Shown here piece by piece: positions 1,838-36,506 of a stretch of 42,000 nucleotides of DNA (positions are counted from its first letter, which is position 1; the number at the start of each line of letters is the position of its first letter). Below the pieces are notes generated by a model that ran no database searches, was not told the DNA's origin, and was given only the letters and a program-made list of their open reading frames with translations. Source of the DNA: Planctomycetaceae bacterium (GTDB lineage: Bacteria; Planctomycetota; Planctomycetia; Planctomycetales; Planctomycetaceae); contig PBOU01000011.1 of assembly GCA_002724415.1 (NCBI GenBank), positions 1 to 42,000 on the forward strand. The letters run 5' to 3'. Position numbers and translations under genes: made by a program.

Positions 1838-3328
1838 ATGCCACTGCAGTTCTCACAGCAGGTGCGAATGGGTCAGCAGATGAGCCAGCAAATGAAGCTG
1901 GCTCCGCGGATGATCCAGTCGATGGAAATCCTGCAGATGCAGCGAGAGGAACTCGAAGCCAGGATCGAGCAGGAAAAAGCGGAGAACGTGACCCTGGAGG
2001 ATGCGGAATCTGAAATGGTTGACGGGGCCGAGTCGACGGAGGTCGAGCCTGTTGCGGAAGTTGAGGTCGAACAACAGGAACTGGTTGTTGATAGCGAGAG
2101 CAACAACACGGAAGACTTCGAACGGCTCGAGTCGATCGAGCCAGACTGGCCGGATGACAACGTGTTCCAGGCGGGGCGGCCTTCGGCAGACCGGGTCGCG
2201 CAGGCTGGCGAGCGGTATCACGATGCGATGGCCAACATGGCGGCCCGGGCCCCGTCGTTGCACGATCATCTGCTGGAACAGTGGGGACTGGTCGAACTCG
2301 AAGAGGATCAAAGAGCCTTTGGTGAGTACCTGATCAGCCACCTGGACCGCAATGGCCGGCTACCGAATTCACTGGAGGAAATTGTCCAGGTGTACGGTCG
2401 GCCGGTGTTGCCAGAGCGGGCGGTGGAGGTTCTCCGGCGGATTCAACAACTTGATCCACGTGGTGTTGGTGCCCGGGACGTTCGCGAGTGCCTGTTGTTG
2501 CAGTTGACCAAGACCACTCCATTGAAGGACGTGTTGACCACGTTGATCAATGGACACCTCGATGAACTGGCCAACAATCGCCTGCCGCACATCCAGAAAA
2601 AGACCGGTTACTCCATCGAGATGATCCAGGCTGCCAGCGAGGTGTTGTTGCATCTGGATCCGTTCCCGGGGCGACGGTTTGAGAGCGAGGTGATCCGGCC
2701 AGTCACGGCTGATCTCAGCGTGGAACTTGACGAGCACGGTCGTTGGGTGGTGGAGCACGAGTCCGAAACCCAGCCACGACTGCGGCTGAGTCGGCATTAC
2801 CAGGAACTGTTGCGTAAGGGGTCCGGGGCCGACAAGCAGACCCGAGACTATCTGAAAAAGAAGGTCGAGTCGGCAAAGTGGTTGATGGATGCGATCGAAC
2901 AGCGAGCCAGGACTGTTCGCCAGGTGGCCCAGGTGATTGTCGATCGGCAGTCGGCGTTCCTGGTTGATGGACCCGAGGCGATCGTTCCGTTGAAAATGCA
3001 GCAGGTCGCCGACGTGGTTGGCGTGCACGTGACCACCGTCTCGCGTGCTGTTGACGGAAAGTGGATCCAGACCCCCCGAGGCCTGTTCGCCCTGAGATCG
3101 TTCTTTGGTGGTGGCACGACGACCTCCGGAGGAGATGATGTCGCGTGGGAGATCATCCGGTTGAAGATGAAAGACATTATCGACAACGAGGACAAGTCGC
3201 GACCGCTTTCCGACGATGCGTTGGTCGATGCCCTTTCGGCCCAGGGGTTTCAACTGGCGCGTCGCACGGTCACCAAGTACCGACAACGGCTGGATATTCC
3301 CTCGTCACGACAGCGGCGCGAGTACTAG
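1838..3328 (+). CDS. rpoN: RNA polymerase sigma-54 factor RpoN
   Basis: This 496-residue sigma-54 starts with the glutamine/methionine-rich Region I (QQVRMGQQMSQQMKLAP, then ...SMEILQM), which contacts enhancer-binding activators. A strongly acidic Region II follows (about residues 45-105), then the core-binding domain and a helix-turn-helix segment (MQQVADVVGVHVTTVSRAV). The RpoN box is at residues 474-483 (ARRTVTKYRQ), the signature for recognising the -24 element. The gene lies 62 bases after recR and may be the end of the dnaX operon. Its stop codon overlaps that of the convergent thiL within the tetranucleotide CTAG. No sigma-54 activator is encoded in this window. Confidence 0.97.
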   Translation: MPLQFSQQVRMGQQMSQQMKLAPRMIQSMEILQMQREELEARIEQEKAENVTLEDAESEMVDGAESTEVEPVAEVEVEQQELVVDSESNNTEDFERLESIEPDWPDDNVFQAGRPSADRVAQAGERYHDAMANMAARAPSLHDHLLEQWGLVELEEDQRAFGEYLISHLDRNGRLPNSLEEIVQVYGRPVLPERAVEVLRRIQQLDPRGVGARDVRECLLLQLTKTTPLKDVLTTLINGHLDELANNRLPHIQKKTGYSIEMIQAASEVLLHLDPFPGRRFESEVIRPVTADLSVELDEHGRWVVEHESETQPRLRLSRHYQELLRKGSGADKQTRDYLKKKVESAKWLMDAIEQRARTVRQVAQVIVDRQSAFLVDGPEAIVPLKMQQVADVVGVHVTTVSRAVDGKWIQTPRGLFALRSFFGGGTTTSGGDDVAWEIIRLKMKDIIDNEDKSRPLSDDALVDALSAQGFQLARRTVTKYRQRLDIPSSRQRREY

Positions 3329-4284
3329 TCGATTCGATGTTCGTATCCGAGCGGAGGAAGTGGCACGATATGCCCATTGGGCATCACCAGTTCCACGCCA
3401 CTGCCGGGAACGATTTCACCGATATCTGACAGTGGAGTTCCACACGGAGGGGCAGCGACGAGTTCTTCGGCGACTCGTGGGTCGACTGCAGCCAGCAATT
3501 CGAAGTCTTCTCCGTCGGCAACGGCATGTGCCAACGGTGTGCGGCCGTCACGAACGGGAGTGTCCGGTTCCCTGGTGGGGATGTCACTGGCGTTCAGCCG
3601 TGCACCCACACCGCTTGCTGTGAGTACGTGGTGCAAATCGGCGGCGAGTCCGTCGCTGATGTCGATCATCGCGTGCAGGCCGCCAGATTCCACCAGGCCA
3701 ACCGATTCGGCCAGTCGCGGCGTGAAGTCCAGGTGATGTCGCTCGCGGCTGTTGCCGAGATAGCCCGTGACGAGCAGGCGGTCCCCGGGGCGGGCACCGG
3801 ATCTCAGTATCGGGCCACCTTCCAGTGGAGTGCCAATCACCGTGACACTGACAACCAGGGGGCCGTCGGTGGCAGTGGTGTCGCCACCAGCCAGGGCGAC
3901 GCCGGTCTGCTCGGCGAGCGTGATCAGGCCATCATGCAATCTCTGGCCGAGATCGTGTTGGCTGCCGCGGGGCAGGGCGACGGAGACCACCGCTGCGAGA
4001 GGTTGGCCACCCATGGCAGCGATGTCACTGAGGTTGACGGCCAGGGCCTTGTGGCCCACCTGTTCCGGTTTTGCCCGGGACAGGTCAAAGTGGACGTTCT
4101 CGACAAGCATGTCGACGGCGACGAGAGCGGGATGAGTGGTCGGCCAGGAAAGCATGGCCGCATCGTCACCGATGCCCACGTCGACCAGTGGATGGGATCC
4201 CGTCCGCTGGCGGATCCATTCTATCAACCCGAACTCGCCGCCAGGGAGTCCTGTTGTCGGGGAGGATGGAGTGCGGGCAGGCAC
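3325..4284 (-). CDS. thiL: Thiamine-monophosphate kinase ThiL
   Basis: The enzyme phosphorylates thiamine monophosphate with ATP to give thiamine pyrophosphate, the last step of cofactor synthesis. The 319-residue protein has the family's N-terminal GEFGLIEWI, the metal/nucleotide-binding DVGIGDDAAM, a second acidic motif AGGDTTATDGPL, and DISDGLAADLHHV in the C-terminal AIR-synthase-like domain. The predicted start is a GTG with a weak GGAA upstream; no later methionine precedes the conserved region, so the start is fairly safe. It lies 50 bases downstream of htrA on the same strand and probably shares its transcript. Confidence 0.95.
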   Translation of the reverse strand: MPARTPSSPTTGLPGGEFGLIEWIRQRTGSHPLVDVGIGDDAAMLSWPTTHPALVAVDMLVENVHFDLSRAKPEQVGHKALAVNLSDIAAMGGQPLAAVVSVALPRGSQHDLGQRLHDGLITLAEQTGVALAGGDTTATDGPLVVSVTVIGTPLEGGPILRSGARPGDRLLVTGYLGNSRERHHLDFTPRLAESVGLVESGGLHAMIDISDGLAADLHHVLTASGVGARLNASDIPTREPDTPVRDGRTPLAHAVADGEDFELLAAVDPRVAEELVAAPPCGTPLSDIGEIVPGSGVELVMPNGHIVPLPPLGYEHRID

Positions 4285-30983: not shown

Positions 30984-31011
30984 TTGACAGGCGATTTCCG
31001 GCACGGACAAT
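30984..31011 (+). promoter_or_regulatory. Putative sigma-70-type promoter of the selenoprotein gene
   Basis: A perfect -35 TTGACA (30984-30989), a 16-base spacer and GACAAT (31006-31011, 4 of 6 to consensus) lie 46 bases before the OsmC-like start. It sits in the divergent gap between that gene and the cupin gene. Confidence 0.5.
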
Positions 31012-31057
31012 GCGTTGCATCTGTTTGTTCTGCTACTCAACTGCGAGGTGATCAGCC

Positions 31058-31537
31058 ATGAGCGTCGTGCACACCAGTCGGATCGAGATCACCAGGCACC
31101 AGGGGCCTCATCGGACCGCTCGCATTGAAGGGTTTGACGGGGTGCTTGATTTTGGAATCCACGGAGGCATCCGGGACTTCTATGCCCAGAAGTACGGCCG
31201 TGAATTTGATGGACCCGAGTATCCTGCCACCCTGGACCACATGATTGCTGGCGTGGCCGGGTGACTGACCGGGTCCCTGGCAGCCGCGCTGGATGCGCGG
31301 TCAATTGTGACGTCAGAACGGTTGGTGGCATCGGTTGAGGGTGACATTGCCGAAGTCGAGGACGTGCTGCGGATCACGGCGATTCGACTGCTTTTTCGGC
31401 TTGTGGCCGATCAGTCCATTGATCACGACGCGGTGGAGCGAGCCCTGGCGACATTTTCGGCGAAGTGTCCGGCCTACCAGTCGGTTCGCGGTTGCATAGA
31501 GTGCAGCTGGGACCTGGAGATCGTTATCGCGGATTGA
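31058..31537 (+). CDS. OsmC/Ohr-family peroxiredoxin-like selenoprotein (in-frame TGA = Sec69)
   Basis: Read through one TGA at 31262-31264, this is a single 159-residue protein of OsmC length in one unbroken frame. Residues 1-68 (MSVVHTSRIEITRHQG ... DFYAQKYGREFDGPEYPATLDHMIAGVAG) and 70-159 (LTGSLAAALDARSIV ... YQSVRGCIECSWDLEIV) are the two halves of an OsmC fold. The TGA falls at the family's first redox cysteine (the AC/AxC-xxxL helix). Cys137 in AKCPAYQSV is the conserved second cysteine. OsmC/Ohr enzymes reduce organic hydroperoxides with a thiol donor; selenium at the peroxidatic position would raise reactivity. A SECIS-like hairpin follows the TGA. The 14-base 3' end overlaps the convergent gene. 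The alternative, a disrupted pseudogene, would need the only lesion to hit the catalytic codon. Confidence 0.85.
31284..31300 (+). promoter_or_regulatory. Putative bacterial SECIS element
   Basis: CCGCGC (31284-31289) and GCGCGG (31295-31300) form a perfect 6-bp stem with the loop UGGAU. The loop begins 26 bases after the TGA and has G at its second position. Bacterial SECIS elements are hairpins inside the coding region just after the UGA, with a small apical loop containing G near its start, which this matches. A further G-U pair can extend the stem. Confidence 0.65.
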
Positions 31538-33655: not shown

Positions 33656-34702
33656 ATGAATGATGTGACACTGCGGGGCAAGGTGGAAGCGATCATCGAT
33701 CCCGAATTGGGACGTTCGCTGGGTGATTTGCGAATGGTCCAGTCGGTGGAGGAGGCCGATGGAGCCGTCCAGGTGACCATCGAACTGCCGACGACGGCCT
33801 ATCCCGAGCCGGAACGGATCGAACGGCTCATCGATGAAGCGACCGATGGAGCCGTTGAGGTGATCTTTGAACGCACGGTGCGTGGTTCGAATTCGGGAGG
33901 GAAGATCGGTCTGAAAATTGCCAACGTGATCTGTGTTGGCAGTGGAAAGGGTGGGGTTGGCAAGAGCAGCGTTGCTGCAGGACTGGCATTCGCGTTGAAG
34001 GCTTCTGGAGCGCGTGTTGGGCTGATGGATGCCGATGTGTATGGCCCGAGTGTGCCGCATCTTCTGGGTGCCAGTGGAGAGCCGTCGGTGGTCGAACACG
34101 TTGGGCCCGACGGTGAACCCGTGCCCCGCATCCAGCCCCTGGAAGTTGACGGGATGCGATTGATGTCGATGGGGTTCCATGTCGAGGAGGATCAGGCGGT
34201 GATCTGGCGAGGCCCCTTGCTGCATCGCACGCTGACCCAGTTCCTGCAGTCCACCGACTGGGGTGAGCTGGATTACCTTGTCATCGACATGCCGCCGGGC
34301 ACAGGTGATGTTGCTCTGACGCTCTCCCAATTGCTTTCACTCTCAGGCGCGGTCATCGTCTGCACCCCGCAGCAGGTCGCGCTGCTCGATGCGCTCAAGG
34401 CTGTCTCGATGTTCAAACAGGTCAAGATTCCTGTGTTGGGGATGGTCGAGAACATGACGGGCGATATTTTTGGTCGGGGTGGGGCGCGTGACAAGGCGGA
34501 GGAGTTGGGGTTGCCCTTCCTGGGTGAATTGCCGGCTGATCCGGAGGTGAGGATACGTGGGGATGCGGGCCGGATCAGCACATTGATTGCCGACGACAGC
34601 CCGGTGAGAGATCAATTGATGGCGATCAGCCAGAAGGTGGCCATCGAGGTGGCTCGGCAGGTGACAACCGGGACCGGGCTCCCCGAACTCGAAATTCTCT
34701 GA
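33656..34702 (+). CDS. mrp: Mrp/NBP35-family P-loop ATPase (iron-sulfur carrier)
   Basis: The 348-residue protein starts with a MIP18-like (DUF59) domain (IIDPELGRSLGDLRMV, about residues 1-75) and a Gly/Ser linker. A deviant Walker A, SGKGGVGKS (96-104), opens the ATPase domain. GLMDADVYGPSVPHLLG, YLVIDMPPGTGDVALTLSQ and GMVENMTGDIFGRGGARDKAEELG follow. It is thought to bind and deliver Fe-S clusters. The CxxC usually found after the ENM motif is missing here. Its place before sufU and sufS supports an Fe-S role. Confidence 0.92.
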   Translation: MNDVTLRGKVEAIIDPELGRSLGDLRMVQSVEEADGAVQVTIELPTTAYPEPERIERLIDEATDGAVEVIFERTVRGSNSGGKIGLKIANVICVGSGKGGVGKSSVAAGLAFALKASGARVGLMDADVYGPSVPHLLGASGEPSVVEHVGPDGEPVPRIQPLEVDGMRLMSMGFHVEEDQAVIWRGPLLHRTLTQFLQSTDWGELDYLVIDMPPGTGDVALTLSQLLSLSGAVIVCTPQQVALLDALKAVSMFKQVKIPVLGMVENMTGDIFGRGGARDKAEELGLPFLGELPADPEVRIRGDAGRISTLIADDSPVRDQLMAISQKVAIEVARQVTTGTGLPELEIL

Positions 34703-34735
34703 CGCCCGGTGAGTGATCTCTGGACAAGACCTGCC

Positions 34736-34764
34736 TTGGCGTTGCCCGTGGCGACTCCTAGAAT
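34736..34764 (+). promoter_or_regulatory. Putative promoter for sufU
   Basis: TTGGCG (34736-34741), a 17-base spacer and TAGAAT (34759-34764) precede the sufU start by 82 bases, in the only sizeable gap of this cluster. The SUF pair could therefore be expressed apart from mrp. Confidence 0.5.
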
Positions 34765-34846
34765 GGAAGTCATAGCGGTGGCAGTACCGTACGCGTGGCG
34801 TTGGGTTGAGAGCCTGCCGGTTGGGGATGAGTGACGGGAGACGCCG

Positions 34847-35242
34847 GTGAGCGACGAACTGTACGATGAGTTGATCCTGGATCACTACGAGTCGCCGTAT
34901 CATCGCGGCCAACTCGACGCTCCCAGTTGCACTCACACCGAGCGGAACCCGCTGTGTGGTGATCGGGTCCAGTTGCAGTTGCAGATCGACTCGGAAAACC
35001 GGATCCAGCAGGCATTTTTTGACGGCGAAGGGTGTGCCATCAGTCAGGCTGCCGCCTCGATTCTTTGCGAACACATCGAAGGGATGACGCTCAGCGAAAT
35101 CGAGGCATTTGATGCTCCGGCGATGCTCGACTTGCTGCAAGTCCAATTGACGGCCGTGCGACAACGTTGCGGATTGCTGGGATTCAAGGTGCTCAAGACA
35201 CTGGTGTATTCACAAGATGCCGCCACCGGTGCCTCGACCTGA
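34847..35242 (+). CDS. sufU: Fe-S cluster assembly protein SufU
   Basis: The 131-residue protein is a SufU/IscU-type assembly factor. It begins MSDELYDELILDHYESPYHRG, like Gram-positive SufU. Ligand residues are in place: Cys37 and Asp39 (NPLCGD), Cys63 (GEGCAIS) and Cys108 (RQRCGLLG). In relatives with a bound zinc it accepts persulfide sulfur from SufS. GTG start with GGGAG upstream. The sufS start lies downstream, so the two form a cysteine-desulfurase/acceptor pair. Confidence 0.94.
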   Translation: MSDELYDELILDHYESPYHRGQLDAPSCTHTERNPLCGDRVQLQLQIDSENRIQQAFFDGEGCAISQAAASILCEHIEGMTLSEIEAFDAPAMLDLLQVQLTAVRQRCGLLGFKVLKTLVYSQDAATGAST

Positions 35243-35285
35243 TCCCGATTGGCGAAACGAGCCACGACAAAAAGGACTGAGGGGC

Positions 35286-36506
35286 GTGGAGACTATTCGC
35301 GACGATTTTCCGATCCTGAACCGTCCGCTGGCGGATGGCACGCCGCTGGTCTACCTGGACTCTGCTTCCAGCGCCCAGAAGCCGCGGGTTGTGATTGACT
35401 CGCTCAGTGACTGCTACGAACGGTATTACGCCAATTCACACCGGGGTGTGTACCAGTTTGGTGTTCAGGTGGATGAAGCGCTCGAAGGATCTCGTGAACG
35501 GATTGCGAGGATGATTGGAGCGGAGTATCCCGAGGAAGTGATTTTCACTTCGGGCACGACCATGTCGATCAACCTGGTCGCCCAGTCGTGGGGAAGGTCC
35601 CAGTTGTCGCCTGGTGACGAAGTGTTGGTCAATGAAATGGAGCACCACGCGAACCTGGTGCCCTGGCAGCAGGTGGCCATTCAGACCGGGGCCGTGTTGC
35701 GGCACATTCCGATGACCGATGACGGTCGACTGGATCTGGAGCGACTCGACGAATGCCTCACACCGCGGACCCGCCTGGTTGCAGTCACGGGGATGTCCAA
35801 CGTGCTGGGGACGGTCAATCCGATCGAGCGGTTGGTCGAGGCGGCCCGTGCGGTGGGTGCATTGGTGCTGGTGGACGGGGCCCAGAGTGTTCCTCATGCT
35901 GCCGTCGACGTGTCCAATCCCCAGGTTGATTTTCTCGCCTTTTCCGGCCACAAGCTGTATGGCCCTTCGGGTGTCGGCGTGTTGTACGGGCGTCGTGAAT
36001 GGCTCTCACAGATGGACCCGTTCCTGTTCGGGGGAAACATGATCAGCGAGGTGGGGCTGACCGAGTCGAGTTGGGCTGAACTGCCGGCAAAATTTGAAGC
36101 GGGCACGCTGCCGGTGGCGCAGGCGATCGCACTGGGCGCGGCCGTTGATTATGTGGTCGGACTGGGGTTCGACGAGATCGGGCGTGTCGAGCACGCATTG
36201 TTGGAAGAGGCGCAGAAGCGTTTGAGCGAGATTCCCGACATGGTGATTCACGGTCCGGCAATCGAGCACAAGGGGGCGATTGTCAGTTTCAGTGACCAGC
36301 GGGTTCACCCGCACGATATGGCCGAATTGCTCAAGCGAAAAGGGGTGGCCGTCCGGGCCGGGCATCACTGCACCATGCCACTACACAGCCGCCTGGGGGT
36401 CGTCGCCACGACCCGTGCCAGTTTTGCTGCATACAACGACTCGTCTGATGTCGATGTTTTGGTCGATGCCATACAGTACGCACGCAAGACCCTGCGCCGC
36501 GACTGA
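35286..36506 (+). CDS. sufS: Cysteine desulfurase SufS
   Basis: This PLP enzyme removes sulfur from cysteine and passes it to SufU. The GTG at 35286 gives 406 residues, the usual SufS size, beginning ETIRDDFPILNRP; an ATG at 35217 would overlap sufU and add atypical sequence. Visible are YLDSASSAQKP, NEMEHHANLVPWQ, VDGAQSVPH, the PLP lysine Lys223 (SGHKLYGPSG), and the active-site Cys362 (AGHHCTMPLH). The group II form with an extended Cys loop fits SufS rather than IscS. Confidence 0.95.
   Translation: METIRDDFPILNRPLADGTPLVYLDSASSAQKPRVVIDSLSDCYERYYANSHRGVYQFGVQVDEALEGSRERIARMIGAEYPEEVIFTSGTTMSINLVAQSWGRSQLSPGDEVLVNEMEHHANLVPWQQVAIQTGAVLRHIPMTDDGRLDLERLDECLTPRTRLVAVTGMSNVLGTVNPIERLVEAARAVGALVLVDGAQSVPHAAVDVSNPQVDFLAFSGHKLYGPSGVGVLYGRREWLSQMDPFLFGGNMISEVGLTESSWAELPAKFEAGTLPVAQAIALGAAVDYVVGLGFDEIGRVEHALLEEAQKRLSEIPDMVIHGPAIEHKGAIVSFSDQRVHPHDMAELLKRKGVAVRAGHHCTMPLHSRLGVVATTRASFAAYNDSSDVDVLVDAIQYARKTLRRD

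Follow-up and report, generated by a model that had tools for sequence, protein, structure and literature searches.

The window, i.e. the whole 42,000-nucleotide stretch of DNA that was analysed, lies in a metagenome-assembled genome (MAG) of 6.26 Mb in 228 contigs, which is 94% complete with 5.5% contamination. Among its genes is an OsmC-family frame whose translation contains exactly one internal TGA (Table 1), as stated in the original prediction of a single TGA splitting a 159-codon OsmC-like gene. The Pfam OsmC domain (PF02566) matches across this TGA (residues 56-150, 39.8 bits versus a cut-off of 27.5), and codon-position GC is alike on its 5' and 3' sides. The Shine-Dalgarno-like motif preceding the gene, GAGGTGATC, occurs five times in the window (0.7 expected), and a sigma-70-like promoter match is present further upstream. 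A cupin gene is divergently oriented upstream, and an endonuclease/exonuclease/phosphatase gene is convergent and overlaps the 3' end. An Rfam search of the locus itself returned nothing relevant.

Table 1. Features of the OsmC-family locus in the window
Feature	Position	Strand	Remarks
Sigma-70-like promoter match TTGACA-16-GACAAT	30984..31011	+	Consensus match only
Shine-Dalgarno-like GAGGTGATC	31045..31053	+	9-nt match, upstream of ATG 31058
OsmC-family gene, predicted selenoprotein	31058..31537	+	159 codons, predicted Sec at codon 69, stop TGA 31535-31537
In-frame UGA, predicted Sec69	31262..31264	+	Aligned to peroxidatic Cys of OsmC/Ohr
Predicted bSECIS hairpin GCCGCGC-UGGAU-GCGCGGU	31283..31301	+	Apical loop 31290-31294
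Cys137 codon	31466..31468	+	Invariant second (probably resolving) cysteine, CP motif

Peptide patterns that left out the TGA site were run against 84,980 species genomes to find relatives. Eight were found (40-66% identical), with titles naming Planctomycetota/Pirellulaceae, Deltaproteobacteria (ranked Myxococcota), Desulfobacteraceae, Syntrophobacterales, SAR324, and an unclassified bacterium, and all eight carry TGA at the aligned codon. In profile searches, two carriers were identified in 392 Planctomycetota genomes, namely the window and one other, each with one TGA, which occupies the same residue in both. In the Desulfobacterota, the phylum of the Desulfobacteraceae relative (L032), 37 strong matches (>100 bits) were obtained in 36 of 395 genomes, one of which contributes two partial matches, which overlap and lie at contig ends, and every strong match contains exactly one TGA. 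A further 29 Desulfobacterota members that were read out have the TGA at the same residue. Altogether, some 44 homologues, drawn from at least three phyla, contain one TGA and keep the protein intact on both sides, and in all 39 members read out the TGA falls on one aligned residue. The matches following the strong ones scored at most 54 bits and represent a short fragment or other OsmC families; no relatives were found among plasmids and viral contigs. The original prediction had proposed aligning homologues at position 69, and this alignment gave TGA in all close relatives and Cys in none. Indeed, no close Cys form was found in the 787 genomes searched, although the search profile held Cys at the site. 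The subfamily, characterized by the motif U[LM]xG[TS], is thus apparently Sec-only and spread over Planctomycetota, Desulfobacterota, and SAR324.

These homologues bear directly on the possibility that the TGA arose through a sequencing error, or through a nonsense mutation that recently hit a cysteine-type gene now in decay. The contig does come from an incomplete MAG, and a 90-codon open stretch 3' of one stop has about a 5% chance by composition, which is weak evidence alone. However, the roughly 44 homologues, which come from at least three phyla and carry one TGA at this place with frames intact on both sides, refute an error or decay, which we regard as extremely improbable. Together with the even codon-position GC and the Shine-Dalgarno match, they also place the interrupted OsmC frame far beyond chance. 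Still less credible is a reassigned genetic code in which TGA specifies Trp, Gly, or Cys: the same gene terminates in TGA, selA, selB, and selD are present, and TGA stops 17 of the 29 long ORFs of the window and is thus the usual stop, which refutes a reassignment.

Selenocysteine insertion requires consideration of the RNA 3' of the UGA. Published limits for bacterial SECIS elements comprise a loop of 3-9 nt, a stem of 4-16 bp, a G within the first two loop positions, a UGA-to-loop distance of 16-37 nt, and an energy of -7.5 or lower (PMC13188914). The hairpin in the window, with its loop beginning 25 nt after the UGA, a G at loop position 2, and an energy of -13.3 kcal/mol, lies within all of these limits, as do the hairpins of 38 of the 39 distinct members, the window included; L069 fails the strict hairpin test. 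Of synonymous shuffles, 19% stayed within the same limits, as did 8.8% of the other codon positions in these genes; the two rates are not p-values because related sequences are not independent. In the first ten aligned sequences, compensatory changes were observed at stem pairs 27-35 (GC/AU) and 23-39 (CG/GC/GU), and stem covariation was 0.311, compared with 0.106 for shuffles and no more than 0.104 for slid positions. At pair 27-35, a silent third base varies together with an Ala/Val change, a coupling for which protein-level selection is no explanation. Taken gene by gene, the folding energy 3' of the UGA is no more than mildly unusual, and the bSECIS assignment therefore rests on the rule test and the covariation.

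In the Desulfobacterota branch (clade B), the hairpin is located nearer to the UGA, with its loop 18-20 nt downstream, and its stem is made of two Leu-Ala codon pairs. The Leu codons of this stem are CTG or TTG in 59 of 59 cases (87/182 elsewhere in the same genes) and the Ala codons are GCC in 55 of 60 (174/355 elsewhere); 96% of the cells are paired, with a CG/UA exchange at 16-35. For the clade-B stem, a variant of 9 bp was also tested but was dropped for the 7-bp stem. The nearer loop of clade B indicates that two SECIS registers, with the loop at about 25 or about 19 nt, exist within one family.

The genome also encodes machinery for Sec insertion. A selA gene (479 bits) adjoins selB (300 bits) on contig C161, and the selB product contains SelB-wing_3; SelB carries the winged helix that binds SECIS. 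A selD gene is located on contig C59 (L020, G000:C59:6125-7045); its catalytic motif, CAGUAGK, contains an in-frame TGA, and selD is thus itself a selenoprotein gene. These contigs may be mis-binned. Within the window, a weak selD-model match at 3325-4284 on the minus strand (54 bits, cut-off 125) is AIR-synthase-like and not SelD. The search for selA, selB, selC, and selD put forward in the original prediction was therefore successful for three of the four genes, whereas searches of the 94%-complete, 228-contig MAG for tRNA-Sec with Rfam RF01852, ARAGORN on regions, and three DNA patterns yielded only ordinary tRNAs or chance matches. The prediction had taken an absence of selB/selC from the complete genome as evidence against Sec, and for selC, formally, that absence is what was observed here; tRNA-Sec genes with anticodon TCA are present in the genomes of seven of nine carriers, and we infer that the missing gene reflects an assembly gap.

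An AlphaFold2 model built from the 39 aligned members has a pLDDT of 87. Its best Foldseek matches are OsmC/Ohr proteins (Escherichia coli OsmC 1qwi, E = 2e-7), and OsmC/Ohr structures also lead in VIA-align at Z of about 9-12 (E. coli OsmC 1nye, Z = 11.1), above unrelated SAM synthetases at Z of about 8. In the profile alignment, U69 and Cys137-Pro138 fall on the Cys pair of 1lql, 4mh4, and 1ukk, so that the placement of the TGA at the first redox-cysteine position and of Cys137 at the second, already proposed from the sequence, agrees with the catalytic cysteines of OsmC/Ohr; U69 and C137 are probably the peroxidatic and resolving pair. Residues invariant in the 39 members include H5, R19, D60, H61, U69, G72, C137, and P138. 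The TGA conservation, the covarying bSECIS, the presence of selA, selB, and selD, and the alignment of the residue to the OsmC/Ohr cysteines all support the earlier reading of the TGA as Sec, and we hold with high confidence that the UGA of this frame is decoded as selenocysteine.

A working scheme can be outlined from these features. SelB would recognize the hairpin, which begins some 20 nt 3' of the UGA, and deliver Sec-tRNA-Sec, so that the UGA would be read as Sec69 and a 159-residue protein would be produced. According to the alignment and the predicted fold, Sec69 would lie on the central helix in the place of the peroxidatic Cys, with Cys137 in that of the resolving Cys. The selenolate could then reduce an organic (e.g. 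lipid) hydroperoxide, Cys137 would trap the resulting selenenic acid to give a selenenylsulfide, and the enzyme may be reset by a dithiol, for which dihydrolipoyl proteins are suggested by analogy. Organic hydroperoxide reduction through a selenenylsulfide with dithiol reset, the substrate being suggested by the family, is the function that we modestly favour. XfOhr uses Cys61, Arg19, Glu51, and Cys125 (PMC5962072), and R19 is a candidate for the Arg of Ohr. The catalytic Glu of Ohr, located 10 residues before the peroxidatic Cys, is not retained (Leu59 at -10 and Asp60 at -9), and classic Ohr chemistry is thus not assured.

The main functional rival is a thiol or persulfide oxidoreductase that has the OsmC fold, retains Sec, and would suit anaerobes rich in sulfide. 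The concentration of carriers in Desulfobacterota and the invariant D60-H61 in place of the absent Glu are consistent with such a role, as is FTN_1133, a protein reported to be implicated in the organic peroxide response yet to lack thiol-peroxidase activity (PMC4069020). However, the two-residue redox geometry (U/C) of the peroxidases is kept without exception, and we consider the oxidoreductase role a realistic but less probable option than hydroperoxide reduction.

A different question is whether the gene is a plain member of the catalogued OsmC-like selenoprotein family, as the mention of known metagenomic OsmC-like selenoproteins in the original prediction might imply. Such proteins have indeed been reported from the Sargasso Sea/GOS surveys, with three sequences (UxxT) in 2005 and five in 2008 (PMC1088965, PMC2398784), and one OsmC entry, UxxT, is included in the 2022 and 2026 tables (PMC9312934, PMC13188914). 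Judging from the motif only, the Sargasso family probably corresponds to NCBIfam NF041052 (OsmC_like_Se). The gene in the window belongs to the same superfamily (PF02566) and has Sec at the same catalytic position in place of the peroxidatic cysteine. Members of the present family, however, scored 12-25 bits against NF041052 (cut-off 95), and their U[LM]xG[TS] motif, with Gly72 invariant at +3 and Ser/Thr at +4, is not UxxT, whereas the Sec proteins above the NF041052 cut-off (L082 and L083) read FULLTQ and FUMFSQ, i.e. UxxT or UxxS. Moreover, NF041052 includes Cys members above its cut-off, whereas the 787 genomes searched yielded no close Cys form of the U[LM]xG[TS] family. In a tree of 75 proteins, the U[LM]xG[TS] Sec family forms one clade (100/99) and groups with Cys homologues from Desulfobacterota with the NF041052 Sec proteins left outside (99/94), so that Cys homologues lie between the two Sec groups; a tree in which both Sec groups were forced together was rejected narrowly (AU p = 0.044), with long branches in play. 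Simple membership in the catalogued family is therefore unlikely, and the gene apparently represents a second, Sec-only OsmC selenoprotein subfamily. The tree split and the narrow AU rejection, read with the long branches in mind, make two origins of Sec in OsmC likely, not proven. Some of the original Sargasso sequences, known here by motif, might be of the U[LM]xG[TS] type. No description of the U[LM]xG[TS] subfamily was found in the main texts of the open-access papers searched. Two TGA-containing copies of NF041052-type OsmC were also observed in one genome (G434).

The nearest Cys branch found (99/94) consists of the Desulfobacterota proteins L112-L115 and L117, which differ from the Sec family in having Cys at the site, a long separating branch, and a second cysteine that lies within KKYCIVSAS and lacks the CP motif. 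One genome (G684) carries both a Cys OsmC of this branch and a Sec OsmC of the U[LM]xG[TS] family (L117 and L079; G684:C17 and G684:C10). Classical OsmC/Ohr proteins (1nye/1qwi, Thermus 1ukk, and Xylella Ohr 1zb9/4xx2) are alike in fold and redox-residue positions but have Cys where the present family has Sec, possess the Glu of Ohr that is missing here, and share about 16% identity with it; TIGR03562 and TIGR03561 scores, where listed, are 12-25 bits, below the cut-offs of 86 and 89.

Within the Sec clade, the proteins from Desulfobacteraceae (L032) and the Myxococcota-labelled genome (L031) were placed with the planctomycete L036 (84/90), and this grouping suggests that the gene may have been transferred between phyla. 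For the composite picture of an independently arisen, obligately Sec OsmC subfamily that has moved between phyla as a single gene and combines a two-register SECIS hairpin with a chemistry beyond the reach of cysteine, we would give even odds. Cys homologues are said to exist for nearly all selenoproteins, and Cys/Sec pairs are one main discovery strategy (PMC13188914); a subfamily without a close Cys form is easily missed, and its genes are easily annotated as two fragments. What is added to the earlier reading is the subfamily itself, which is apparently Sec-only and stands apart from the catalogued one. It would offer a clean case for studying the reasons for retaining selenium. It also suggests two acquisitions of Sec by OsmC and hints that Desulfobacterota and planctomycete lineages have a redox activity not yet studied.

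Apart from antisense shadow ORFs of the gene, no conserved neighbours were found in 19 loci. The OsmC selenoprotein gene is a stand-alone unit, and the proposed reductant and substrate thus draw no support from an operon partner. Located 2-5 kb downstream in the window (33656-36503) are genes for an Mrp/NUBPL-type Fe-S carrier and a class-V aminotransferase (cysteine desulfurase-like), for which a link to selenium supply is possible.
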